64,000 nucleotides of DNA from Tamarix chinensis. Taxonomy: Eukaryota > Streptophyta > Magnoliopsida > Caryophyllales > Tamaricaceae. The stretch's first letter is position 1. Each line of letters starts with the position of its first letter. Positions 2,461 through 47,596 of the stretch are shown here, one piece after another. The stretch is from positions 143,674,859-143,738,858 of the forward strand of contig CM060171.1 in NCBI GenBank assembly GCA_030549775.1, given 5' to 3'. Made by a program: the position numbers and the translations under genes. The notes under the pieces are model-generated. The model did no database searches. It was given only the letters and a program-made list of their open reading frames with translations, and was not told the origin of the DNA.

Positions 2461-3100
2461 ACTCCCATATTAAATATTGTCCGAAGGATATTGCCCTACT
2501 AACCTTGCTAGATATGGATTTCTACGTAAATAAGGGCGTGTTACACTTGCCAACCCAAGCATCAATGAGCGAACGTGTTTCAACAATACATGTAGTACCC
2601 ACATCATCGTGTGATAAGCCAAATCATCTGACGATCCTTTTTCAGTGACGGGTTCGATAGAGCTGCCATCCAATGGACCAATAGTAGTTTCTATATTTTC
2701 CGCCCAAAATTCTGAATTTGCAAAATCAGGATTAGCTACCAGTAAAGCTAAAAGAGGAGAGAGAAAGGGGGGGCTATTACCTGAAAGGCCGAACCAAAAA
2801 GCTTAACAAAATGCAATTGGATACATCCTGATCTCTTGTGCGACATGAGAGGAAAATGCAGCTTGTATCGATGGCTTTTTAATTAGAACGAGCTCACAGG
2901 GGGACTTTAACAAACATCCATTAAAGAAAAATGCCAAGTCAACAATCACTGTCTTTTTATCGCCCACTTTCAACAGAATAGTAATCATTACCGAACAACA
3001 AAAGATAAAGAAAATACATTACAGGAATGCCATTATTTTATAAGTCCTAGCATCAAAATCCAGCGATGCACATGATTCAGGTGCTGGGCAAAGCAACACC
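2461..3100 (-). other. Sequence downstream of the B14 gene, probably including its 3' UTR
   Basis: This lies directly downstream of the stop codon of the complex I B14 gene. Two short minus-strand open frames (2988-2803 and 2673-2470) exist. I recognise neither, and their junction near 2780 offers only a splice-like CAGGTAATAG followed by a pyrimidine run, too short for a normal intron. The nearer part is most simply 3' UTR. The farther part could be a broken unknown gene. Confidence 0.35.
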
Positions 3101-6074: not shown

Positions 6075-6993
6075 TAGAGGTGGAAATTGGATTGAGTGGA
6101 TCGGGTCGGGTCGGGTCAGGTTTCGGTTAAGCAAACTCAGGTTCAAGTCATTTGGGATTAACTTGACTGGTAGGGTTGAGTTGGCTTCAGGTCATTTTCT
6201 AGTTAACACGACTAGGTGGGCTCGGCCCGTTTGGGTCATTTTGTGTAATTTGACAGGTTGGTCCCGTTAGGTCCGAGTTGTTTCGGGTTAACTTGATGGG
6301 TTGGGTCATATCATGCAATTTGACGGGTTGGGTTTAAATAGTTACGGGTTAACTTGATGGATCGGGTCGGGTCGAGTTTTGATGGGTTAAGTCAAATTCG
6401 GGTCCAAGTATTTATCATTTATTACATTGTAAATATTAGAAACAATCATAAGATTACTAGTACACATAAATGAAATAAGAATATTAGATGCGCTTTATTT
6501 TCACAAGTAAATAATAAAGATATTTATAAATTTTAACAATAAAAAACATTGCATGATTCAATCTAACAAAGACATTCAGCATTTATTATCATTTATTTGA
6601 TTACTTGTTTATTAAATTATTATTATGACGTCTTAATGTTGTATTTTTGTGTGAAAAATTTATTAAGATATCATTAATAAATAAGGATGTCTAGGGTAAA
6701 AATATGAAAAATATGTATAATTTATAAAATACTATATTTTTAAAAGCTTTAAATGAATAATGAAATATGTGTAATTTATTATTATTATAATAGATTTTTA
6801 TATCTGGTCGGGTCGACTAGTGGTCGAGTCTATGACGGATCATGGGTTGGGATTGGATCAGGTCGGGTTAAGTATTATCGGGTCAATGCTGGGTTAGGTC
6901 AGGTCGGGTTGCTAAAATTTTCGGGTTTTATCGGGTTGGATTTCGATCAGGTCAGCCTGAGTTGGGCGGGTCAATCAACTTTTGCCAACTCTA
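6075..6993 (+). mobile_element. Non-autonomous hAT element, family TAGAGGTGGCAA
   Basis: 919 bp, ends TAGAGGTGGAAATTGG and CAACTTTTGCCAACTCTA, perfect 8-bp duplication CTGGTAAC (6067-6074 and 6994-7001). Subterminal blocks are repeats of GGGTCGGGTC/GGGTTAACTTGATGG. The AT-rich core (about 6413-6780) matches the unit amplified in the 4.9 kb relative at 15554-20499, so this copy shows the unexpanded form. No transposase. Confidence 0.92.
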
Positions 6994-7001
6994 CTGGTAA
7001 C

Positions 7002-8440
7002 TATGTAACATAACACCACAAAGGTAACATGTGATGAAATCATGACACAAATATCATCACAATTACAATGCCAATTTTGTTTGTTTGGAACAAGGGCTAC
7101 CAAGTGCAACGAATTAGCTGTAAAGGTATTTTGAAGGCCTTTTTTCACATCCTAATCCTTTAAAAGCACCTGAGCTCACCATACGCATCGCCATCCAAAC
7201 CAAAAAAAAAGAATTGAAGATAATTAGATGATGCTCTATATTTAATTTCACATTTTAAGAATGTCAGAAGCTTTTGTCTGTGGTATCTCCTGTTCAACTT
7301 CTGGCATTTCAAGGACAATGCATTCTGGCAATCAATAATATCTTGTTATATTCTACTTGACACTAACAACCCTCAATGTTGCATGGGCACAGGGATGTTG
7401 ATGGGAAATGGAGAAGATGAGAAACAAGGAAATGATATTTTCATAAAATATAAACTATATTTATGTGCATTTTGGAGAAACAAAGATGCATGAACAGGAA
7501 AAGTTTCTGGGACGCGGAGGCTGGATCAAATGAAGTTTCCATGCATAAGTGATGGTCCTTGACTCATTGCCTGCTTTCTCTTTCTCTCATGGGTTGTGCA
7601 CCCAAACAGGCTACAAGCATCTCAGATTGTCCAGCAAGTTATCCGAGTAAAAAAGGAGCTGGGTGTTGACCTTTTGGTTCACAATGAAATCTGTTCAGAA
7701 GTAAATAACTTTGGCCACACTCTCAGTCATCATAGACTGCGGAATTCCTCCCTCCACAAAGGCTAGGAGGCACCAAAAAAGGTGAAAGGGACCTACAATG
7801 CCTGGTTCTTCATATTCTCATTATTCATTGTGCTAGGATAAATGGTTGAATCATGAAAATTCCGAATTGATGTAGTTTTCAATACACTCATAAAAGTTTT
7901 ACAAAAATAAAAAAACGACTGCAGTATTTTGAATCATTGATCTCTAATTGAAATAAGTTCACTAGTTTTAATTATTTGAAAGATATAAATCACATAATTT
8001 ATATTCTATAACCAGAAGGTTTCAGGCATGGCACTATAAAAGAGAAGACATATCATGAAATTCCCGACATGGAGTGGTGATAAAAATTAGCCATTAAATG
8101 GTTACTTCAACTAAAATATTAGTAAATAGGCAGCACTTAATTGATGGCAAAGATCCAGATGCTGAAGCAATGGACCATATCTAACCTTAATAAACTAAGA
8201 GAAGGCAATGTTTGCAATCCTCATTAAACTTCAGTCCATTTAGGAGGGGGAGGGGGAGAAAATGGAGGATAAGAGGGCATCATATCAAGCAATAAGCTCT
8301 TATCTCTTCCCTTAACAATTTAAAATAAAAAATGCTCTGTACATCTCAAAGTAACATTGTGATGCTATGAATGGAGACAAATAGAGAAACTTCCATAGAA
8401 GGAAGCACACTATTCATAAATAGGTTCTACCTCTGGGTAA
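7002..8440. other. Intron DNA without recognised features
   Basis: No gene, terminal repeats or RNA gene is recognised here. Confidence 0.4.
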
Positions 8441-10460
8441 TTCATTAACTCTCTCCAGTAGGTCTGCTTAACTTTTTAATGCTACTGAAGTGGAAGATGT
8501 GGTCTTCTCTTCTGGTAATATTAAGACATCTGAGCTTGATGACTTGAATGCATATTTCTTTATAAAATCTTGGGAGTATTGTTGTACTTGCTGTCCAGGT
8601 GTTCTGGTCTAGTGGTAGGTTGTTAAAGGACATAAACAAAACATGTTTCAAATTTATTCCTAAGATTCCTAACCCTACTACAGAGGGGTATTTTTTTTTA
8701 CCTGTAACATGTTATACAAGATTGTGTCCGACGTCCTTGATTACAAGGTGTTCCGCATGACGTAGTGGATTTATCACATGCCGCTTTTGTTGAGAATAGG
8801 GCCATTACTGATAATGCTTTTTTATGGCTCATGAACTAAAATTATACAAGAGAGCTCATATCAGCCCAGAGTGATGTTGATGATTGACTTTAACAAGGCA
8901 TATGACGCTACTGAACGGCCACATGTTAAGCATGTTTTGCTGGGAACTGGAGTCTGGTTTCTAATTCATTTGCATCACTATGCAAATGTATAACATCAGT
9001 TACAATGTCAAATATTTTTGAGTTATTTCAAGGTAAAAGAGGATTAGGGCATGGGATCCTTTCTCCTATTTATTTGTCCTTGAAGTTGAGTATCTACAAC
9101 AAATGTGTAGCTCTGAGTGTCAAGGGTTTTGGAGGGCATCCAGAAGCTTAAGATTATAAACCTCATTCTTGTAGATGATCTCTGGTTGTTCCTTATAGAA
9201 GATTCCATTTATGTGCCTTTACTGTTACCGGCTTACAGCAGTTACAAACTTTCCCGATCCACAGAAAAACAGTGTTTACTTTGGAGGGGATTCTAGGCAG
9301 TTCAAACAACATACTCTTCACACTCATGGATTTCTCAAAGGATCTTTTCCTTTTAGATATCTTGAGATACCATAAGAGTGTGCCAATGTATTCATCCAAC
9401 ACTGATCTTTTCCTCTGCTTGATAAAATTGTGAGAAAATGAAGTCATTGGATCACAAATTCCTTGGCTATGCTGGCAGGATCCAATAGCTTTGGCATATC
9501 ATCTTCAGTATTCAGAACTATTGATCCCAGATGTTCATCTTTCCAGAGAAAGTTATTCAGAAGCACTTTGCAGAAGGTTTCTAAGGACTGGTATTCCTTC
9601 AAACAGTAAGCAACCCCTTGTGTCATGGAAGAAGATTTATGCTGCTACGAGTCAATGCGATTTGGGCTTTGAGGATTTGTTTTTGTTTGTCTATGTTGGT
9701 ATCTATGGAATCTGGTAAAGCTCAAAGAGAGCCCCATGCATCAAGTGGATACATTTAACATATTTGGAAGGAGTAGATCTGTGGCATTTCCAGCTTAAAG
9801 CACATCATTCCTAGTTATTGAAGGATCTGGGGTTGAGGTATCAGGTTCAAAATTTTTTCCCTGATAATATCTACACATTCAATTGGGAAGTTTTTATCAC
9901 AAGCTGGTTCAGAGAGGTAGGAAACAAGCTTGGTCTAATGTTGTTTCGTCACACAATGGGCTACCAGAGCATAAAGTTATAACATGGATAGCTTGTCATT
10001 CTGCTATCGGTAGAAAGGAGTTACGCAAGTGAGGATTGCTTTCGGATCATATCTGTGAAATGTGACTGTCTTATTGTACCAAGCCATTTCTCGTCCATTT
10101 ATGCAGTGTCCGATAGCTCATGATACATATATGGCTATTATTATGTCCATCTTGTTGTGGTTGGGATTGGTTGTTGAAGACAAGAAAGCTCGGATGCTTC
10201 GAACTGTATTTTGTGCTACTGCGTATTGGTTGTATAGGAATCGTGTTATTTTCCAGGGGGTCAACCTGTCATTTCTAGGGTGTTTAGAAACTGCTGTTAG
10301 ATCTTCGTGGTAAGCTGTTGCATTGCTCTAGAGGTAAGATAGCTAGTTCTAGAGACCTGATCGATATTTTAGCATTTTTACTTCATGCCTATACTGGTAA
10401 TTCATATGATCACCTCATTCACACCCCCCGCCCAAAAAGAAACTTAATAATGAAAAAAAA
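8440..10460 (+). pseudogene. LINE (non-LTR retrotransposon) reverse transcriptase remnant
   Basis: Translated pieces in shifting plus-strand frames line up with plant LINE (L1-like) polyproteins in order. They are a FFIKSW-like segment near 8560, SSGRLLKDIN and FIPKIPNPTT near 8620-8690, VMLMIDFNKAYDA near 8870-8910 (the first catalytic block), LILVDDL near 9160-9180 (in place of the usual FADDL), and a C-terminal YWLYRNRVIFQG segment near 10230-10260 typical of the zf-RVT end. Many stops and shifts break it. A short A-rich tail occurs near 10440-10460. The 5' end is not visible and the element is probably truncated. It lies antisense within the B14 intron. Confidence 0.82.
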
Positions 10461-15420: not shown

Positions 15421-15568
15421 GTATATTCGTATTAATATTAGAAGAAAATGGTAGAAATTATATAAAAGGGGTATTTATAGGCAGGGTGGTAGGGCAAGGC
15501 CAAGGGAAAAAAGACAAGGGGTGCGAGCGCCAGGCTGGCCGGTAGGCGGCAGCTAGAGGTGGCAAACG

Positions 15569-15950
15569 GGTCGGGCGGGTCGGGTTCGGGTCGGGTCATA
15601 GCGGGTCGGGTCATTAACGGGTCGGGTCATAGCGGGTCATTTGACTATTGCGGGTCGGGTGCGGGTCAGGTCGGGTCACTAACGGGTCGGGTCATTTCGG
15701 GTCAATCAATTTGGCGGGTCGGGTGCGGGTCGGGTCGGGTCATTAACGGGTCGGGTCATTTCGGGTCAATTTGTCGGGTCGGGTGCGGGTCGGGTCGGGT
15801 CATTAACGGGTCGGGTCATTTCGGGTCAATTTGTCGGGTCGGGTCGGTTGCGGGTCGGGTCATTTCGGGTCAATTGTCGGGCCGGGTCGGTTTCGGGTCG
15901 GGTCATTTCGGTTCCGGCCTCCAGGTCATTTCGGGTTAATTTGTCAAGTC
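15569..15950 (+). repeat. Left subterminal GGGTCGGGTC array of the giant hAT element
   Basis: Dense GGGTC/CGGGTCATT repeats including a 60-bp unit that occurs twice without a mismatch (15721-15780 and 15781-15840). Runs of GGGTCGGGTCGGGTTCGGGT satisfy the G-quadruplex pattern. The open frame here (Gly/Ser/Arg-rich) is a by-product of the repeat. Confidence 0.85.
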
Positions 15951-16283
15951 GGATTAGGTCCGACTATTCGAGTTAAGAAAACTCGGATTCGGATAATTTT
16001 GGGTTAACTTGATTGGTGGTAGGGTGACTAGGGTCGGGTTGGTTTCGGGTCATTTTCTAGTTCACGTGAGTAGGTGGCTTCGGCCGGTTCAGGTCATTTC
16101 ATATTTTCATGTAATAATATAATATGATAGGTTAGTTATGTTCGAGTTGTTTCGAGTTAAATTGATGGGTGGGGTCATTTGACTCATTTCATACAATTTG
16201 ACGGGTTGAATTCAATTAGTTACGGGTTAACTTAATGAGTCGAGTTTTGACGGGTTTACTCATATTCGAGCCTAAGTAATTAT

Positions 16284-19200
16284 CATTTCATAAATCATAA
16301 ATATTAGAGACAGACAATCATAAGATTAATATTGCAGATAAAAAAATTAAAAATATTAAATGCGCTTTATTTTCACAAATAAATAGTAAAGATATTTATA
16401 AGTTTTAATAATAAAAAATATTGCGCTTTGAATCAAACAAAGATATTTATCATTGATTATAATTTATTTGATAACTTAAAATATTTAATTACTTAAAAAA
16501 AGATAATTTTATAAAATAAAGATGATCAAAACAAGATTATACAATGTATAATTAATTATCATTTATTACATTGTATATATTAGATACAATAATAAGATTA
16601 CTAGTAAAGATAAATGAAATAAGAATATTATATGTGTTTTATTTTTACAAAGGTAAATAATAAAAATATTTATAAGTTTTAATAGTATTATATTCGATTG
16701 CTTAAAATATTTATAAATTTTAAAAGTAAAAATATTAGATATCTATAATATATTATATTTACTTAATTATTTAAAATATTTGATTACTTAAAAAAAGATA
16801 ATTTTATAAAATAAAGATGAGCATAACAAGAATAAACAATGTATAATTATCATTTACTACATTGTAAATATTAGATACAATCATAAGATTATTAGTAAAG
16901 ATAAATGAAAAAAGAGTATTATATGTGTTTTATTTTTACAAAGGTAAATAATAAAGATATTTATAAGTTTTAATAGTATTATATTTGATTGCTTTAAACA
17001 TTTATAAATTTTACATGTAAAAGTATTCGATGTTTATCATATATTATATTTAATTGATTACTTAAAAAAAGATAATTTTATAAAATAAAGGTGAGTATAA
17101 CAAGAATATATAATGTATAATTATCATTTATAACATTGTAAATATTAGATACAATACAATTATAAGATTACTAGTAAAGATAAATGAAATAAGAATATTA
17201 TATGTGTTTTATTTTTACAAAGGTAAATAATAAAGATATTCATAAGTTTAATAGTATTATATTTGATTTCTTTAAACATTTATAAATTTTAAAAGTAAAA
17301 ATATTAGATGTTTATATTATATTATATTTAATTAATTAGTTAAAATATTTGATTACTTAAAAAAAGATAATTTTATAAAATAAAGGTGAGCATAACAAGA
17401 ATAAACAATGTATAATTATCATTTATTACATTGTATATATTAGATACAATAAAATCATAAGATTATTAGTAAAGACTAAATATAAATGAAATAAGAGTAT
17501 TATATGTGTTTTATTTATACAAAGGTAAATAATAAAGATATTTATAAGTTTTAATAGTATTATATTTGATTGCTTTAAACATTTATAAATTTTACATGTA
17601 AAAATATTAGATGTTTATTGTATATTATATTTAATTGATTACTTAAAAAAAGATAATTTTATAAAATAAAGGTGAGCATAACAAAAATAAACAATGTATA
17701 ATTATCATTTATTACATTGTATATACTAGATACAATACAATCATACGATCACTAGTAAAGATAGATAAAATAAGAATATTATATGTGTTTTTTTTTACAA
17801 AGGTAAATAATAAAGATATTTATAAGTTTTGATAGTATTATACTTGATTGCTTTAAACATTTATAAATTTTACATGTAAAAATATTAGATGTTTATTGTA
17901 TATTATATTTAATTGATTACTTAAAAAAAGATAATTCTATAAAATAAAGGTGAGCATAACAAGAATATAAAATGTATAATTATCATTTATTACATTATAT
18001 ATAGTAGATACAATACAATCATAAGATCACTAGTAAAGATAAATGAAATAAGAGTATTATATGTGTTTTATTTTTACAAAGGTAAATAATAAATATATGT
18101 ATAAGTTTTAATTATATTATATTTGATTTCTTTAAACATTTATAAACTTTAAAAGTAAAAATATTAGATGTTTATCGTATATTATATTTAATTGATTACT
18201 TAAAATATTTGATTACTTAAAAAAAGATAATTTTATAAAATAAAGGTGAGCATAACAAGAATATACAATGTATAATTATCATTTATTACATTATATATAG
18301 TAGATACAATACAATCATAAGATCACTAGTAAAGATAAATGAAATAAGAGTATTATATATGTTTTATTTTTACAAAGGTAAATAATAAAGATATGTATAA
18401 GTTTTAATTATATTATATTTGATTTCTTTAAACATTTAGAAACTTTAAAAGTAAAAATATTAGATGTTTATCATATATTATATTTAATTGATTACTTAAA
18501 ATATTTGATTACTTAAAAAAAGATAATTTTATAAAATAAAGGTGATCATAACAAGAATATACAATGTATAATTATCATTTATTACATTGTATATACTAGA
18601 TACAATACAATCATAAGATCACTAGTAAAGATAAATGAAATAAGAATATTATATGTGTTTTATTTTTACAAAGGTAAATAATAAAGATATTTATAAGTTT
18701 TGATAGTATTATACTTGATTGCTTTAAACATTTATAAATTTTACATGTAAAAATATTAGATGTTTATTGTATATTATATTTAATTGATTACTTAAAAAAA
18801 GATAATTTTATAAAATAAAGGTGAGCATAACAAGAATATACAATGTATAATTATCATTTATTACATTATATATAGTAGATACAATACAATCATAAGATCA
18901 CTAGTAAAGATAAATGAAATAAGAGTATTATATGTGTTTTATTTTTACAAAGGTAAATAATAAAGATATGTATAAGTTTTAATTATATTATATTTGATTT
19001 CTTTAAACATTTATAAACTTTAAAAGTAAAAATATTAGATGTTTATCGTATATTATATTTAATTGATTACTTAAAATATTTGATTACTTAAAAAAAGATA
19101 ATTTTATAAAATACAGGTGAGCATAACAAGAATATACAATGTATAATTATCATTTATTACATTGTATATACTAGATACAATACAATCATAAGATCACTAG

Positions 19201-19370
19201 TAAAGATAAATGAAATAAGAATATTATATGTGTTTTATTTTTACAAAGGTAAATAATTAAGATATTTATAAGTTTTGATAGTATTATATTTGATTGCATT
19301 AAGCATTTATAAATTTTACATGTAAAAATATTAGATGTTTATTGTATATTATATTTAATTGATTACTTGC
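16284..19370 (+). repeat. Eleven-unit tandem array of a 275-297 bp unit inside the hAT element
   Basis: Each unit contains ATCATTTATTACATTGTA, TCATAAGAT..CTAGTAAAG, TTTATTTTTACAAAGGTAAA, AAAAATATTAGATGTTTAT and ACTTAAAAAAAGATAATTT. Units start near 16284, 16558, 16847, 17120, 17417, 17704, 17982, 18276, 18565, 18852 and 19147. Some units carry an extra TTAAAATATTTGATTACT segment of about 19 bp, and two subtypes (CATGTAAAAAT versus AAAAGTAAAAAT) partly alternate, suggesting block duplication. The unit corresponds to the single-copy core of the relative near 6413-6610. Confidence 0.9.
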
Positions 19371-20142
19371 AAAAGTATTATTTTTTTATAATAATTTTTA
19401 TATCATTTATTCTATCTTTCTTTTTCATATTCATTTCTCTATATAATTTATCTTATTAATTTCTCTAGTTGTATTTATTTTATTAACATTATTATATTTA
19501 TATTTTTATTGTAATATTTTTATTAATTATTATTATTATAGTAAAAAAAATATAATAAGTTATTTTAAACATAATTTAAATTAAATAATAATTTTATATA
19601 TTTTCATTAATTATTAATTATTATATATATTTCATATATATTAAAAATTAAATAATATAAAATATTAATATTAATATTATAATTAAAAAAATAATTAGAT
19701 ATTATAAATTTAAATTGATGAACGTAGAATACTAAATTATATTTAAAGTAAATTAATAATAAAAAAAAAAATATAACTAAAACTTTAAATTTAGGGTTGT
19801 AACGTGAGATACTCTTGATACGAGGTATAGTTATTATTTGTTGGATTTTATAGGTGATAAGTGATAAATTGATAACTAATAAATGATACTATTATACTCT
19901 TCTATTAAGAGTTTCTTCAAATAGATGGATTAGTAGATGTAATGAACATGTTTTGAAAATCATTTTATAAGATTATAACTGGATGTTTGTCTTTTTTATT
20001 TTGGTTTTTTATTATTAATAATATATCTTATTAGGATATCATTAGTAAATAAGAATGGCTAGGGTAAAATTATGAAAAATAAGTACAATTTATAAAATAC
20101 TATATTTTTTAAAAGCTTTAAATGAATAATAAAATATATGTA

Positions 20143-20147
<5 letters not shown>

Positions 20148-20179
<32 letters not shown>
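20148..20179. repeat. (TTA)n microsatellite
   Basis: A pure run of about ten ATT units in the right arm of the giant hAT element. The shorter relative has an ATTATTATTATAAT version at the same place (6779-6793). Confidence 0.9.
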
Positions 20180-20182
<3 letters not shown>

Positions 20183-20205
20183 TTTGATGTCTGATCAGGT
20201 TAATA

Positions 20206-20480
20206 TTGAGTCAGATCGGGTGATTGTCGGGTCGGGTCACTATCGGGTCGGGTCAATTACGGGTCGGGTCAATGACGGGTCGGGTCGCTATCGGGTCGGG
20301 TCAATAACGGGTCGTGGGTTGGGATCGGGTCGGGTCGGGTTCGGGTCGGGTTGATTATTATCGGGTCAGTGCCGGGTCGGGTCATTGTCGGGTCGGATCT
20401 GGGTCGGGTCGGGTTGCTAAATTTTGCGGGTCGTAACGGATCGGGTTTTGCTCGGGTCGGGTCGGGTTGGGCGGGTCGGA
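20206..20480 (+). repeat. Right subterminal GGGTCGGGTC array of the giant hAT element
   Basis: GGGTCGGGTCA repeats with interposed ATAACG, TGACG and GCCG spacers. Same motif and same strand as the left array, so the two arms are direct rather than inverted repeats. Strong G-quadruplex pattern. Confidence 0.85.
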
Positions 20481-20507
20481 TCAACTTTTGCCGGCTCTAG
20501 CGGCAGC

Positions 20508-21913: not shown

Positions 21914-23396
21914 TAGAGCTGACAAAAATTGACCTGACCTGTCAACCCGACCCTCACAAAACCCGATCTGCCATAACTCGATAAATTTATCAACCCGACC
22001 CAACCCAAATGTGACCTGAAACTAATCCGACCCAACATTAACCCGAATATAGACTTGATCCGACCCCAACCTGTAACCCTCCATCAACCCAACCCATTAT
22101 CAACCCAAACCACCATCAACCCAGCCAGCTATCAACCCGATCCGACTCAATAAAACCAAATTTGATATTAACCAATTATGATAATTAAAAAAATAATGTC
22201 TTATTATTTATTTAAAGCTTTTAAAAATATATTATTATTTAAATTTTACTTATTTTTCTTATTTTTATTGTGAACTTACTTATTCACCAATGATTTTCTA
22301 ATTTTACCAACTTTTTTGCATAAAAACACAATATTAAAAAGTCATAATAATAAATAAATAACAATTAATAACACATTATTAATCATATGCTTGCATAAAG
22401 TTTAACTTAATTATTACCTACAAAGTTAATGAGTTAGATTAATTTTGGTGGTCAATATCCGATTTAACCTAAATCCAAAGTGATTTGATTCACGATTAGT
22501 TCGGCTCGAACCTAATCCGACACATCAAAACCTAAAAAGATCCAATTCATTAAGTTAACCCAAATCAGACCCGTCAAATTAACTCAAACATAAAATCACT
22601 TGAATACGAGCTTGCTTGGCCCAAACCCAACTCGATAAGGATGTAAATGGAGTGGGTTCAAGGTAGGTACACCCATACCCATATCCGATAAGAAAATATG
22701 CTCTCAAATTTGTACTCGTACCACAAATGGGTATCCACTAACACATCCATTTTCGTATCCATTGCATATCTGTTACCCGATAGATAATTCATTTATCCGT
22801 TAATGGATATTGTCCAGCTGATAAATCTATTACCCAAAGGATAAGCTCATATAGAGTTAAACCAAATTCCAATTTTAGCCTTAATTTATACTATATTTAT
22901 TTTCAAATTAATGGTAAATGGGTACGCATATGGATATAGGTATAGGTATGGGTATGGGTACGGATATGGATATCCTATACCCATATCCGTACCTGAACCT
23001 GACGAGTATTTTTTCCATCATCTATATCCATTTAAGTATCCAAAGGATAAAATCCATTGAGTTTGAGGTAAAATCCCTACCATTTACATTCCTAGACCCA
23101 ACCCAACAAGCTAACCCGAAATAATATGAACCCAACCCAACTCGAAATCAAACTATCTCAACCAAACCCAAACCCGACCCGACCTAATAAATTAACCTGA
23201 TACAATCTAGATCTACAACGACCCAAACCTGAACTGGGCCTGACCCAAAAAATAAGGCGATTTGAAATGACCTAAATTCAAATGACCTGACCTAACCTAC
23301 AATCGACCCGCAAAGAAAAATGACCCACAAATTATCCGACCCGAGAACAACCCTACCCACTATAGCCTAACCCACCCAACCCGATTGCCACCTATA
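21914..23396 (-). mobile_element. Non-autonomous hAT element, family TAGAGGTGGCAA, with a nested element
   Basis: Ends TAGAGCTGACAAAAATTG and CGATTGCCACCTATA. Flanks CTAATAGG (21906-21913) and TTAATAGG (23397-23404) differ at one position. Internal AT-rich text is the reverse complement of the core of 6075-6993, and the subterminal CCCGACCC/AACCCAA text matches the same family. It splits the MULE transposase within an Asn-Arg-Glu-Leu stretch. It contains a smaller element at 22636-23094. Confidence 0.85.
22636..23094. mobile_element. Small hAT element, family TAGGGATGTAAATGG, nested
   Basis: Termini TAAGGATGTAAATGG and CCATTTACATTCCTA, with subterminal GGATATGGATATCC and TACCCATATCCG motifs as in 39756-40241. 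The 8-bp duplication is not clear (candidates AACCCAAC and GACCCAAC do not abut the left end exactly), so the boundaries are a little uncertain. Confidence 0.7.
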
Positions 23397-30830: not shown

Positions 30831-31075
30831 TTTAAGGTTTTAGATGGTTTGGTTTTTTGGATTTGGGGTTTAGGTTTGTAATTTAGGGTTTATGATTTAG
30901 GGCTAAGGGTTTAGGTTTTAGGGTTAAGGAGTTAATGTTTAATGATTAGGTTTTGGGGTTTATGGTTAAGGGTTTATGATTTATTGTTTAGGGTTTATGG
31001 ATTATAGTTTATGGTTTAGGGTTTATGGTTTGGGTTTGTAGTTAAGGGTTTAGGGATTAGGTTATAGGGTTTAGA
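30831..31075. repeat. Degenerate telomere-like (TTTAGGG)n array, left half
   Basis: Dense GGGTTTAGG, GGGTTTATGG and GGGTTAAGG variants over 245 bp. The same array resumes at 47394 on the other side of the gypsy element, which is inserted in it with the duplication TTAGA/TTAGG. It is interstitial, since coding and transposon DNA lie on both sides. Confidence 0.8.
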
Positions 31076-38596: not shown

Positions 38597-39755
38597 GATC
38601 CCATCATTCATCTTCACAAACAAAAAGGGTGATCCCCATGGAGATATGCTCGAGTGGATGCACCTATGAGCCATCAACTCCTTCAAATGAGTATTTAACT
38701 TTGGAAACTCTACCAATGCTATCTGATAAGGTGCCTTCAACATTGGCTCTACCCAAAGTACTAGCTCAATGGTGAAGAGTATCTTGCGCACTAACAGTAT
38801 GTCAGGTATTCTAAGTCTTGAGAAACTAGAATAATGTCACCACGTCCTTGTTCAACTCTTGAACACTACACAGGTACATAGGGTAACCTCTATACACCAA
38901 CGAATATAGCATATGGGTAGATACAACTTTTATCATAAGCTTAAGCTTGCATATCCTATAGGAGACTCTAGTACCTTGAGATCCCTACAACACTACTTGC
39001 TCCTATGCTCAGTCTATTACTTCTTTGTATTCCCCCAACATGTCAATTATTAAGATGAAATTGAAGTCTTGTAAGTCCATCTCAACCAATTCCACTAGGA
39101 ATTTTGCACTTTTTATCTCTAAGGTCACGTCCGAGTAGAACCTAATACAATCCAATCTATCCTAGAAGGTAACATCACAAATACAGATACGCTAGCAGAT
39201 GGAGATATGTAATAAAAGTAGTTGATACGAATGATAAGGAAACACCCAAATCAAACAACACATAATTTGGTAATGAAATGATGCTGAACATACTAGTGAC
39301 CAAGTCCAACTATCAATCAACCTTTGCCTGACTGACGACATTCATATGCTCGTCTAACTATCCAAATTGGTATCCTCCATGATACCATATGGCACCCTAA
39401 GTCTGAACTCCTCTATGAGGGATTGGGCAAGGCTCCTATGTAGGGATGGCAATGAGTCGGGTTTGGGCCGAGTCCAGTCATACCCAGATCCGGACCCATT
39501 TATATTATCTAGACCCAGACCCGACCCAGACCCATCGGGTCTTAAAAGTTTAGATCCAGATCCATTGGGTCTAACTAGTAAACGGGTCCTAAATGAGTCC
39601 GATTATTTAAAAAAAACAATCTATGCTAATCCAAATACATTTATGTTTTATATAACTTAATATGTATTTTTTTGTTAAAAAAATCATCTAAGTGAAAAAA
39701 TAAATATATTAAAATAGTTATATTAACATTTCAAATGGTGTTTTAATGCTTTTAG

Positions 39756-40241
39756 TAGGGATGTAAATGGGGCAGGTTCGGGGTGGGTATACCCATATCC
39801 GTATTCGTATCCGAAAAAAATTTTTGTACCTATACCCGAATCCATATCCGCTAACATATCCATATCCGTATCCGTTGGATATTTGTTACTCGACGGATTA
39901 TCCGTTTACCCGTTAATGGATATTATCCGACGGATAAATCCATCACCCGATAGATAAATCCATTTAGAGTTAAGCTAAATGATAATTCTAACTTTAATTT
40001 ATACTATATTTATTTTAAAATTAAGGGTAAAAAGATAATTATATATCGGGTAAACGGGTACGGATATGGATACGGGTATGGTTACAAGTACGGGTATGGA
40101 TATCCCATACCCGTATCCGTACTTGAACCCGACGGGCATTTTTTTTTCCATCATACATATTCATATCCATATTCGTTTATCCATATCCGTTGGATAAAAT
40201 CTATCGAGTTTCAGGTAAAATCCGCCTCGTTTATATCCCTA
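39756..40241. mobile_element. Small hAT element, family TAGGGATGTAAATGG, nested
   Basis: 486 bp, ends TAGGGATGTAAATGGGG and GTTTATATCCCTA, perfect 8-bp duplication GCTTTTAG (39748-39755 and 40242-40249). Subterminal regions are dense in TATCCGTATCCG/GGATACGGATA motifs. Both ends resemble those of the transposase-bearing element at 41830-47016, so it is probably mobilised by that family. Confidence 0.94.
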
Positions 40242-40383
40242 GCTTTTAGAATACAATGTTATATATATTGTTTATAAAGTAAGTATACAAAAATAAAATT
40301 TAAAAAAAAATGAATAAGGAGATTATATAAGATTAAGACAATAATGATAAACATAATATTAGTATGTATTTATATATGTATAC

Positions 40384-40404
40384 ATACACACACACACACA
40401 CACA
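40384..40404. repeat. (CA)n microsatellite
   Basis: Short pure CA run in the hAT element core. The sibling at 1244-1927 has a TG run at the matching place (1446-1458). Confidence 0.85.
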
Positions 40405-41699
40405 TGTACATTAAACGGGTCTGGCGGGTTGGGTCTGGGTCTAGAATTGAACCAAGACCCAAACCCGATCCTAACTCGTCGGATCCAAAAATTATGGACC
40501 CAGACCGGCTAAAAATGAGGCGGGTCTAGCGGGTCTAGGTCGAGTCCGAGACCCATTGCCATCCCTACTCCTATGGTATCTCCTTAACCTCCTTAGGTTG
40601 TACACTGGCTGGGGCAGGTGCCCTCTACAGAAATTGTTGTAGCAGTGGTTAGTAGGTCTCTTGTTGATAAGTTTGTTGTCGTCATACCAGCAATCCCCTC
40701 TATTAAAATTAACCACCTTATGGCCGAAATTGTCCCATATAGTGCTAACACTATAAAGATCAGTGACCCAATTAACTACAAGCTCTTCACTAAACAACTA
40801 CACTCTGGTAGTTTTGACCAAGATAATCTCTATCGTGAATGCAACAAAAAGTGCCACAACGGTCCTAAATATCTAGTTTGACCACCTGTATGGCCCCTTG
40901 AATAGAAAATTAGAGGTCCACCTCTCTGAAATTAGATTCGACCTCTAAATCCCTGTGTCTTTGACTTCCTCTTACTAAGGATGGAGGCATGCTCCTGTAT
41001 CATGGTAGCGATGGCACACATCCACTCATACAAGATAGCCTAGTCCTAGAAGGCCACCATATCAATCATCCTATAAATGCTAAAATGGAGCCCTTATTCA
41101 AACTAGTAGACCATTGTTGACTCACTAGTCGCTATGCTTGATGCGAAGATCAATAGCTCCATAAACCTAGCATGGTACTACCACATTGTATGCTTCCCTG
41201 GATAAATTGCATAAACTTCTTTAGCTTTTCCTTCTTGAGGCTCTCTAGATAAATCTTGGTTTGGATCACCATCTTAAAATCCTCCCAAGATATCGGTAGT
41301 CCTCCCTACACTCAATAACCTACCCACTAGGCGTCTACAACTCCTTGAAGAAAGAATGTGCTCATGCACGCCTACCGAGCAGATGGACATTAAATTGCCT
41401 CATAAGTCTTTTCCATATCCTGAATCCATCCCTCCAATATGACCAAATATTTTTCACTAGTGTAAATTGGTGAGTGAATTCCAATAACCTTCTGAAGCCA
41501 ATCTTCTCTGATACCCTCATGTAGGTAATTAAGAGGTGGCAGTGGCAACTGAGAGTGAGGTGGTGGCGGTGTGCACTTGACAAACTCAATGAAGGCCTCG
41601 AAGGTCTTCTCTAAGTAGCCAACATGACCATTCAAGGAGAAGACACTGGAATATTTATAGAGAGAAATGAGTGAGGGCATGTGATAAGGAAGTTGAAGG

Positions 41700-44020: not shown

Positions 44021-46166
44021 ATGGCATCAAGTAGCCAACTTAATATTGATTCACAAAGTCTACCACCATATTCTTCCAGCGTAGCTAGTAATTTCTACAC
44101 CTAGTGAACCATCAACCAATGAGGAGGTAGAATAAGTGAATCCATTTTCTTTAGTAAAAAAAGGAAGAAAACTTCGGTTGTTAAGGATCACTTTAACACG
44201 ACAAAAATTAATGGTCTGAAAAAAGCAATTTGTAAAGGTTATAATAAGAGTTTTAGTGGTGATCCAAAAACTAGTACTTCTCATTTGCATGATCACATGA
44301 AGAAATGTATACGTTTACGGCCTATACAAGGGGTAAGACAAACTAAGTTGAGTTTTTATCAGAAGGGGGAAGGAAAATGAAAGCTTATGGTTGTAGAATT
44401 TATTCAAGAAGTTGCAAGGCATGAGCTATGTAATATGGTAGTTATGCATGAGTATCCACTTTATATAGTGGAACATGAAGGCTTTAGAAGATATTCTTTA
44501 GCTCTTCAACTATCATTTAAAATGATTCCAAGGAACACTCTGTGAAGCGATATTTTCAAGTTGTTTGAATATGAAAAAGACAAAACAATGTCATTGTTGA
44601 GTAGTAACAAGAGTCTAGTTTCAATCACGATAAATATGTGGACATCTCATAATCAAAAAAGGGTTTCATGGACATCACGGCTCACTGGATTGATAATCAT
44701 TGGACCTTACAAAGTCAAATAATTAGGTATACTAAATTCATATTCATCTATAGTTATAAAATATTAATATTATGTAATTATATGTTGTTCTTTGGTTTAT
44801 TTGTTGTATCATTGTATTTTGTTGAAGGTTTGTCTATGTTCCAAGTCCACATACATCTGAGGTTCTGTGTGATGTTTTGGTCAATTGTTTGATGGAATGG
44901 AATATTGATTCAAAACTTACTACATTGACCATCGATAATTGTACCACCAATGATGCTTTGATCGGAGATTTGAAAAATAGATTTGAGTCGAAGTGTTTTT
45001 TATTGCGTGGGAAATATTTTCATATGTGTTATGCTGCTCATGTGCTTAATATTATTGTTAGCTATGGTATTGAGATCATTCAAAAAGCTATTGAAAACAT
45101 ATGTGAGAGTGTAATGTATTGGAAAGCCACACCAAAAAGGCTAGAAAAGTTTATGGAGGTTTGTCGTCAAAAAGAAATTCCATATAGTAGAGCCTTAGCA
45201 CATGATTATAAGACAAGATGGAATTCTATATTTTTTATGCTTGATGTTGTTATAATGTATGAAGATGTGTTTGCTCGCTTGGCAATGTTGGAATCTAATT
45301 TTAATTGTTATCCTACAAGTGATGAGTGAGATTTGGCTCGATCTATTTGTGATAGATTGTCATTATTTTATGATGTCACTTTGATGTTTTCTAGGAGTAG
45401 ATATCCTACTGCCAATTTATACTTTCCCAAGGTTTGTGAAGTTAGAATGTTCTTGATTGAATGGTCTCTTGATCAATATGAAATTATTAGTGGTATGACA
45501 ACAAAAATGATAGAAAATTTTGAAAAATATTGGAGTGTGATTCATGAAATGATAGTTGTGGCAACTATTTTGGATCTAAGGTATAAATTGAAGTTGGTAG
45601 AGTGTCATTATTCTATCATTTATGGGAGCACCTAGGGTGAAGAGGTAGATAATGTTCGTAAAATATGCTATGAACTGTTTCATGAGTATGAGGAGAAGTA
45701 TAAGTGTAGGGAGATAAGTTCATCAATATCGCGTGATTCTAGTGTTAGTAGTCAAAGTTGTGGTTCAAGTGTTAGTAATGTGACTTTGGGTTCTAGAGTC
45801 TCCCTTAAACTTCATTATAATCAGTGGTTGGCAAACCAATACATTTCTAGTGCACCATAGAAGACCGATTTAGATTGTTATTTGGAGGAGCCTGTGATAC
45901 CACAAATGGACGACATTGATGTGTTATCATGGTGGAAGACAAATACCAAGTATCCAATTTTGCAACGAATGGCTAGAGACATGCTTGTCATCCCTATTTT
46001 TACAGTTTCTTTTGAGTCGGCTTTTAGCACAAGTGGGATATTTGTAAGTCCTCATCGCAACCAATTACACCCAAAGACTCTAGAAGCATTAATGTGTTGT
46101 AGAGATTGGTTTTGGGCTACTATAAGGAATAAAGGTAATATTTACTTTTATACATTTGATGTTTAA
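44021..46166 (+). pseudogene. hAT (Ac/RICESLEEPER-type) transposase, disabled
   Basis: ATG at 44021 opens MASSSQLNIDSQSLPPYSSS, then a stop. A BED-type zinc-finger segment follows near 44200-44310 (ICKGYNKSFSGDPKTSTSHLHDHMKKC), where the second zinc Cys is Tyr. At 44633-44635 the expected first catalytic Asp (TxDxWTS) reads Asn. A GTATAC...TTGAAG intron spans 44727-44827. From 44828 one frame runs to the TAA ending at 46166 with only three stops (45327 TGA, 45633 TAG, 45858 TAG). It contains LTIDNCTTNDALI (second Asp), ALAHDYKTRWNS and the C-terminal dimerisation region VLSWWKTNTKYPILQRMARD...SFESAFSTSG with the Glu kept. Start, substitutions and stops say it is inactive, but the decay is mild. 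Confidence 0.92.
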
Positions 46167-47393: not shown

Positions 47394-47596
47394 TTAGGGT
47401 TTAGGTGAAGGATTTGGAGTTTATGGAAATGTTTGGGGGGTTTAGGGTTTAGGGTTTATGGTTAATGGTTAAGGGTTTGCACCTAATGGTTTAGGGGTTG
47501 TGGTTAATGATGTAGGGTTTAGGGTTTAAAGGATATATGGTTAATCATTAAGGGTTTGGGGTTTATGTTTACAAATAAGGTTTTGTGTTTAAGAGG
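47394..47596. repeat. Degenerate telomere-like (TTTAGGG)n array, right half
   Basis: GGGTTTAGGGTTTAGGGTTTATGG and variants, the continuation of 30831-31075 across the gypsy insertion. Confidence 0.8.

Follow-up and report, generated by a model that had tools for sequence, protein, structure and literature searches.

The window examined in this study is a 64,000-nucleotide stretch of the Tamarix chinensis genome (assembly GCA_030549775.1, contig CM060171.1). Its positions 15554-20499 are a single insertion of a hAT transposon, 4,946 bp long and flanked by perfect 8-bp target-site duplications, GCGGCAGC, which lie at 15546..15553 on the left and at 20500..20507 on the right and are identical to each other. 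Duplications of 8 bp are also made by Ac/Ds. The insertion ends in short terminal inverted repeats, TAGAGGTGGCAAA at the 5' end and TAGAGCCGGCAAA at the 3' end, as hAT elements do, and it contains eleven tandem units between 16279 and 19368. A Pfam search of eight open reading frames of the window found no transposon domain, and the element has no transposase of its own. The initial annotation of this locus had recognized the single insertion, the core of eleven tandem units and the non-autonomous state, and these descriptions hold. It had also proposed that the core had been amplified in a small hAT derivative, and that a transposon was here seeding a satellite. The present analysis concerns this element and the origin of its array.

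Results

All parts of the element lie on the plus strand. The 5' terminal and subterminal region (15554..16278), which opens with the inverted repeat TAGAGGTGGCAAA, contains 40 GGGTC motifs and a 60-65-bp tandem repeat at 15602-15861. The eleven units start at 16279, 16555, 16846, 17120, 17415, 17701, 17979, 18275, 18571, 18850 and 19146 and measure 276, 291, 274, 295, 286, 278, 296, 296, 279, 296 and 222 bp, respectively. Each of the first ten consists of a body of about 220 bp and a 56-bp linker, and the eleventh (19146..19368, 222 bp) is a body without the linker. Unit 1 (U01, 16279..16554) is divergent, being 73-80% like units 2-11, which are 92-99% alike among themselves. An optional segment within the units, initially given as 19 bp, does exist and is 17 bp long by alignment. 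With a G+C content of 15% the array is AT-rich and, in this as in its unit length, satellite-like. In the window alone the alternation of unit subtypes was not significant (alternation, P=0.17; lag-2, P=0.05; lag-2 minus lag-1, P=0.20), and a dimeric higher-order repeat, considered from this array alone, was dropped for that reason. To the right of the array are an AT-rich segment of about 640 bp (19369..20010), a 3' core common with a sister-subfamily copy described below, the sibling (20028..20193; 90.2% over about 142 bp), and the 3' subterminal and terminal region with its inverted repeat (20190..20499), whose 24 GGGTC motifs are oriented as at the 5' end.

The host assembly of 1.32 Gb was searched for related copies, and all unit counts come from this single assembly. 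With the 5' end of the element, 40 places were scored among 1,886 candidates, the matches being 86-100%. We fetched the best 20 copies after the window by 5' end, five by array and the three least similar. One of the copies with a single linker, L036, retains an apparent transposase-gene end. When this end was searched for, 40 places were scored among 407 candidates, and one of them pairs with a 5'-end match on C3. The relative at C3:22819719-22830515 is 10,797 bp long, has the same ends as the window element and carries the duplication CCTATGGG on both sides. It contains U01 and 11 linkers, and its array separates the 5' subterminal region from the transposase gene. About 2.4 kb beyond the array lie two stop-to-stop frames, of 547 and 98 codons, in which the hAT transposase domains PF14372 (1.4e-26) and PF05699 (3.8e-24) were recognised. 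The frames lie at 6342-8312 of the relative and the window copy resumes at 9584, so that the ends are kept and the gene is missing. Five further copies of the transposase end were probed over 1.3 kb at the position predicted for the array, which was found in three of them.

The internal-deletion junction of the window element, TTACTTGCAAAAG (19363..19375), joins the end of the array to position 9584 of the C3 relative; TTAC is common to both joined sides, and the gene and a spacer were lost there. The AT-rich segment to the right of the junction is missing in both the sibling and a third relative in the window, and the view that it is a recent insertion in the window copy was ruled out by its presence in the full-length, transposase-bearing relative. 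Junctions were mapped on the C3 relative for 14 of 24 copies (the 22 with both ends that are described below, L035 and L036) and fall into seven classes, which resume at 8435 (L036), 9330 (L018), 9396 (L027 and L035), 9437-9439 (L020, L021 and L023), 9583 (L022), 9584 (the window copy, L009, L014, L028 and L029) and 9700 (L015); the 9583 and 9584 classes are separated solely by their differing left sides. The junction of L036 includes 22 bp that are also found 129 bp further along the relative. Copies that have 1, 2 or 5 linkers arose by internal deletion, with the join falling at a unit body or within one. Low linker counts are therefore the product of deletion, and these junctions ruled out the idea that the low-count copies are early stages of growth. 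The window element itself is probably a Ds-like internal deletion that retained the array. A TA-microsatellite spacer of about 130-250 bp, varying in length, was observed between the array and the AT-rich segment in L018, L020, L021, L023, L027 and L035.

Twenty-two copies were mapped with both ends (the 20 best 5'-end matches, L029 and the window copy). Matching 8-bp duplications were found at 22 of 22, each different from the others; the ends were allowed to shift by as much as 3 bp, which L015 alone required (1-2 bp). These copies are 2,494-9,291 bp long and thus differ from miniature inverted-repeat transposable elements, which are short (under about 0.8 kb) and uniform. They have 1-25 linkers, or 2-26 unit bodies when truncated last bodies are counted: seven copies have 12 linkers, three have 10, four have 5, two have 14, two have 11, and one copy each has 8, 2, 1 and 25. 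In L030-L033, where the 3' end was seen and the 5' end lay beyond the fetched stretch, there are 21, 20, 8 and 11 linkers, respectively. L034-L036 were partly read; the long array of L034 runs beyond the edge of the fetched stretch, and L035 and L036 have one linker each.

The units were lettered A-K after a 12-linker copy, L024, and the letters are best matches among similar units, of which H, I and K frequently tie. The barcode ABCDEFGHIJK is found in L009, L010 and L024. That of the window copy is ABCD GHIJK: its units 2-5 (16555..17700) are A, B, C and D, which are almost constant among the genome copies, and its units 6-10 (17701..19145) are a G-like unit, H, I, J and K, in place of the E F G H I J K of the commonest layout. 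L014 and L016 have one additional IJ dimer, the barcodes of L015, L020, L021 and L023 end after ABCD, and L029 reads ABCDEFGH(IJ)3 FGH(IJ)3 K. An ABCD start is present in 22 of the 24 barcodes, which were read from copies of three or more linkers other than L034-L037. Among six copies chosen for their like layout, units at the same position (positions 1-8) are on average 99.0-99.9% identical (lowest pair, 98.25%), and different units within L024 are 91.6-98.9% identical. Because same-position identity exceeds the identity between units within a copy, the array predates these insertions and was copied with them. The array thus moves as a whole with the element, one of the possibilities that the initial annotation had left open.

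The sibling (6075..6993, plus strand) is 919 bp long and flanked by perfect duplications, CTGGTAAC. It has a single unit body (6409-6606, about 198 bp), and the linker was looked for in it and not found. Its best match to the array reaches 163 bits, against a maximum of 43.6 across 300 dinucleotide shuffles. The initial statement that the array unit occurs once in the sibling is thus right for a homologous body and wrong for the linker. This body is nearest to U01 (83.2%; units 2-11, 75-78%), a tree placed U01 with the sibling, and both U01 and its counterpart in the sibling are colinear with single-copy hAT sequence. Unique columns number 24 in the array, 15 in U01 and 7 in the sibling (array vs U01, P=0.20; array vs sibling, P=0.003) and would accord with either order.

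In a genome search with 6075-6993, 40 loci were scored among 3,334 candidates. Among these best 40, at least 25 have two to twelve unit bodies, mostly at a spacing of about 250 bp, and a few are single-bodied like the sibling (e.g., C1:163215686 and C6:99529483). The locus L065 has three bodies, and the linkers between them are 90-91% identical to those of the window. Since the same body and linker occur in a sister-subfamily copy, body-plus-linker arrays most likely predate the split of the two subfamilies. The sibling is thus one of the single-body copies of a subfamily rich in arrays, and not the progenitor. Its candidacy as founder of the array was dropped when the genome search found sister-subfamily arrays with the linker, whose presence there also ruled out an origin of the 56-bp linker as filler DNA from the founding duplication.

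A 53-bp pattern of linker and body start occurs at 3,040 sites genome-wide (up to 3 mismatches; reversed-pattern control, 0), and the units are estimated to total about 0.9 Mb, less than 0.1% of the genome. On chromosome C1 there are 81 exact unit matches in 42 scattered loci; the longest span is 4,108 bp, a lower bound, as are all spans from exact matches only. An array search scored 38 loci among 623 candidates, 34 of which were inspected for the hAT 3' end. The end was present at all 34, 20 via the predicted place and 14 in fetched stretches. No free array was found among these 34 loci, and lower-ranked places could hold some. Neither the inspected loci nor the exact matches on C1 revealed the long transposon-independent arrays of a satellite. 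The proposal of a transposon seeding a satellite is therefore not borne out, and an array spread through the genome without hAT ends was not encountered at the inspected loci.

The lengths between linkers fall into few classes across the genome copies; changes in unit number therefore occur in register. In L013, which has two units fewer, the first unit resembles A at 4 sites and then C at 12, a clean hybrid. Unit 7 of L025, which is G-like and then H- or E-like (its last 3 sites fail to separate H from E), and unit 6 of the window, which resembles E or F at one diagnostic site on its left and G at three on its right, are consistent with hybrid units. In L029 (C8:81722700-81732600; 9,291 bp, 25 linkers) a 2,603-bp block of nine units stands twice with identical sequence, which is either a very recent event or an assembly artefact, and the three IJ dimers in each block are 99.5-99.8% alike. 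The duplication of multi-unit blocks, first suggested from the alternation of subtypes, is accordingly seen in other copies, as repeated dimers and the nine-unit block, and not as a significant pattern in the window. In L011, L013 and L019 the slot that follows E is filled by a short unit of 279-280 bp, and these copies form a clade with support of 100 and 93 in two trees; some array variants follow the tree of the single-copy parts. The slot-6 unit of these three copies had been read as unit J, and this was given up when the site check identified it, for L011, as an F-like unit without the 17-bp segment. Changing in register and with hybrid units, the array resembles satellite DNA, whose units change by unequal exchange. 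The pattern suggests one of two mechanisms, unequal exchange or misaligned repair synthesis.

Several other features were observed. The subterminal GGGTC motifs are unidirectional at both ends, with GACCC absent, in the window element (40+24) and in the C3 relative (39+35). Runs resembling G-quadruplexes number 4+3 in the window element, and zero were counted in the sibling or the third relative. The termini of the window element are presumably similar to those of rice nDart. The third, more diverged relative (21914..23396, minus strand) has a duplication matching at 7 of 8 positions and no recognisable array, and is split by a nested, element-like stretch at about 22639-23092 with the ends GGATGTAAATGG and CCATTTACATTCC. 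A further hAT-like insertion of 1,127 bp lies at 39441-40567 (ends, TAGGGATGGCAATG; perfect duplication, CTCCTATG), and a fragment of a RICESLEEPER/DAYSLEEPER-type hAT transposase, about 44-53% identical to database relatives, at 44399-45347. Degenerate 7-bp repeats similar to the plant telomere (TTTAGGG / GGGTTTA) are present at 30882-31074 and 47438-47571.

Discussion

We conclude, with a probability of roughly 0.86, that the block in the window is a Ds-like, non-autonomous element, derived by internal deletion from a hAT transposon of about 10.8 kb that has the tandem array as part of its structure. An ancestral hAT of this size would have held an array of AT-rich units of about 275-296 bp between its 5' subterminal region and its transposase gene, and such a large element with a built-in array would have been the source of non-autonomous copies in which the array persists and varies. 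The derivatives might have formed after excision by abortive gap repair or microhomology joining, as has been suggested for maize Ds. Unit number might shift by unequal exchange or template misalignment during repair, and the derivatives may be mobilised by transposase supplied in trans.

A number of observations weigh against this conclusion. The C3 relative is the sole full-length transposase-bearing copy that was read, and its transposase may not be intact. It groups weakly (support, 72-75) with short-array copies outside the clade of the window copy, and its array is different in the right half, where E is followed by F-like units; by this placement and this difference it is related to the parent of the window copy without being that parent. 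No array was found in the 1.3 kb probed at L040 and L041, two of the five transposase-end copies. The sister-subfamily linker is known from one locus, L065. The first 20 copies were the best 5'-end matches, which biases the sample toward intact, close copies. The array variant of L017 is without a single clean switch, as is slot 6 of L011, an F-like unit minus the 17-bp segment. For private variants, a change before transposition is indistinguishable from one after it.

It is improbable that the differences in unit number are mostly assembly artefacts of one tandem array. Arrays can be collapsed or falsely expanded in an assembly, repeats of 296 bp at 94-99% are hard for short reads, and the exact block duplication in L029 is of the kind that such errors would leave; these points, too, count against our conclusion. 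However, diagnostic sites distinguish the units, some variants follow the single-copy tree, and hybrid units occur. We regard as very improbable the capture of an independent satellite by a hAT element, or the insertion of a hAT element into one. The unit length and AT richness (15% G+C) would suit a satellite, and units 2-11 differ from U01 by 20-27%, but a hAT 3' terminus accompanied all 34 arrays inspected among the 623 candidates, both U01 and the body of the sibling are colinear with single-copy hAT sequence, and C1 is without a long block of exact matches. Least probable of all is the initial proposal that a small one-unit derivative (about 0.9 kb) amplified its core before or after moving, which would accord with the single body of the sibling, the resemblance of U01 to that body and the failure to find the linker there, but the 10.8-kb transposase-bearing relative already has the array, sister-subfamily copies have arrays, one with the same linker read, and internal deletion accounts for the copies with 1, 2 and 5 linkers.

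The derivation from a large hAT transposon invites comparison with known systems. Maize Ds elements are deletion derivatives of the hAT element Ac (PMC3260210). They have, like the window element, ends in common with a larger transposase-bearing element, an internal deletion and variable filler. Unlike in Ds, the retained part here is a tandem array of variable unit number, and the word "tandem" is absent from the text of that paper. In Vaccinium, as described in PMC7290377, VaccSat7 units occur in non-autonomous Harbinger-type elements, where 3-5 satellite-like units stand in tandem inside plant DNA transposons with target-site duplications, as here. These elements differ from ours in superfamily, in their few units and in a unit that is the terminal part of the element; the family described here has 1-25 linkers and an array in a transposase-bearing copy. 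The foldback element Tetris of Drosophila virilis likewise contains tandem repeats of about 220 bp (TIR-220) within a DNA transposon, although according to PMC4079207 these sit in the terminal inverted repeats and also form longer satellite-like arrays, whereas the present array lies inside the element and none of the 34 inspected loci held a free array. Tnat1 and Tnat2 of Arabidopsis, which PMC10794571 names as elements with tandem repeats (60 or 240 bp) at their centre, may be the closest precedent. In the part of a review of transposon-derived repeats available to us (PMC9659126), Atenspm and ENSAT1 are entered as an autonomous plant DNA transposon whose 5' untranslated region is listed as a source of tandem repeats. 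Unlike the present family, they belong to an En/Spm-like superfamily and are listed as a satellite source, and hAT appears there in reference titles only. A literature search covering titles and the starts of abstracts in one library found, among the matches listed, no hAT element with such an internal array.

It is conceivable, although we consider it unlikely, that the array is a maintained working module of the transposon, kept through the subfamily split and not hitch-hiking debris, with its first four units nearly frozen and its right half turning over like a hypervariable minisatellite. If this is true, the array could serve as a regulatory, insulating or repair-promoting spacer. The family also provides a natural series, in which dozens of copies of one array stand at known sites with unit barcodes and adjacent single-copy sequence from which trees can be built. 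The direction and mechanism of array change could be measured copy by copy, and whether change takes place during transposition or in place could be tested. Finally, the results caution against taking a short one-unit element as the ancestor of an array; in this family, the short elements appear to be derived.

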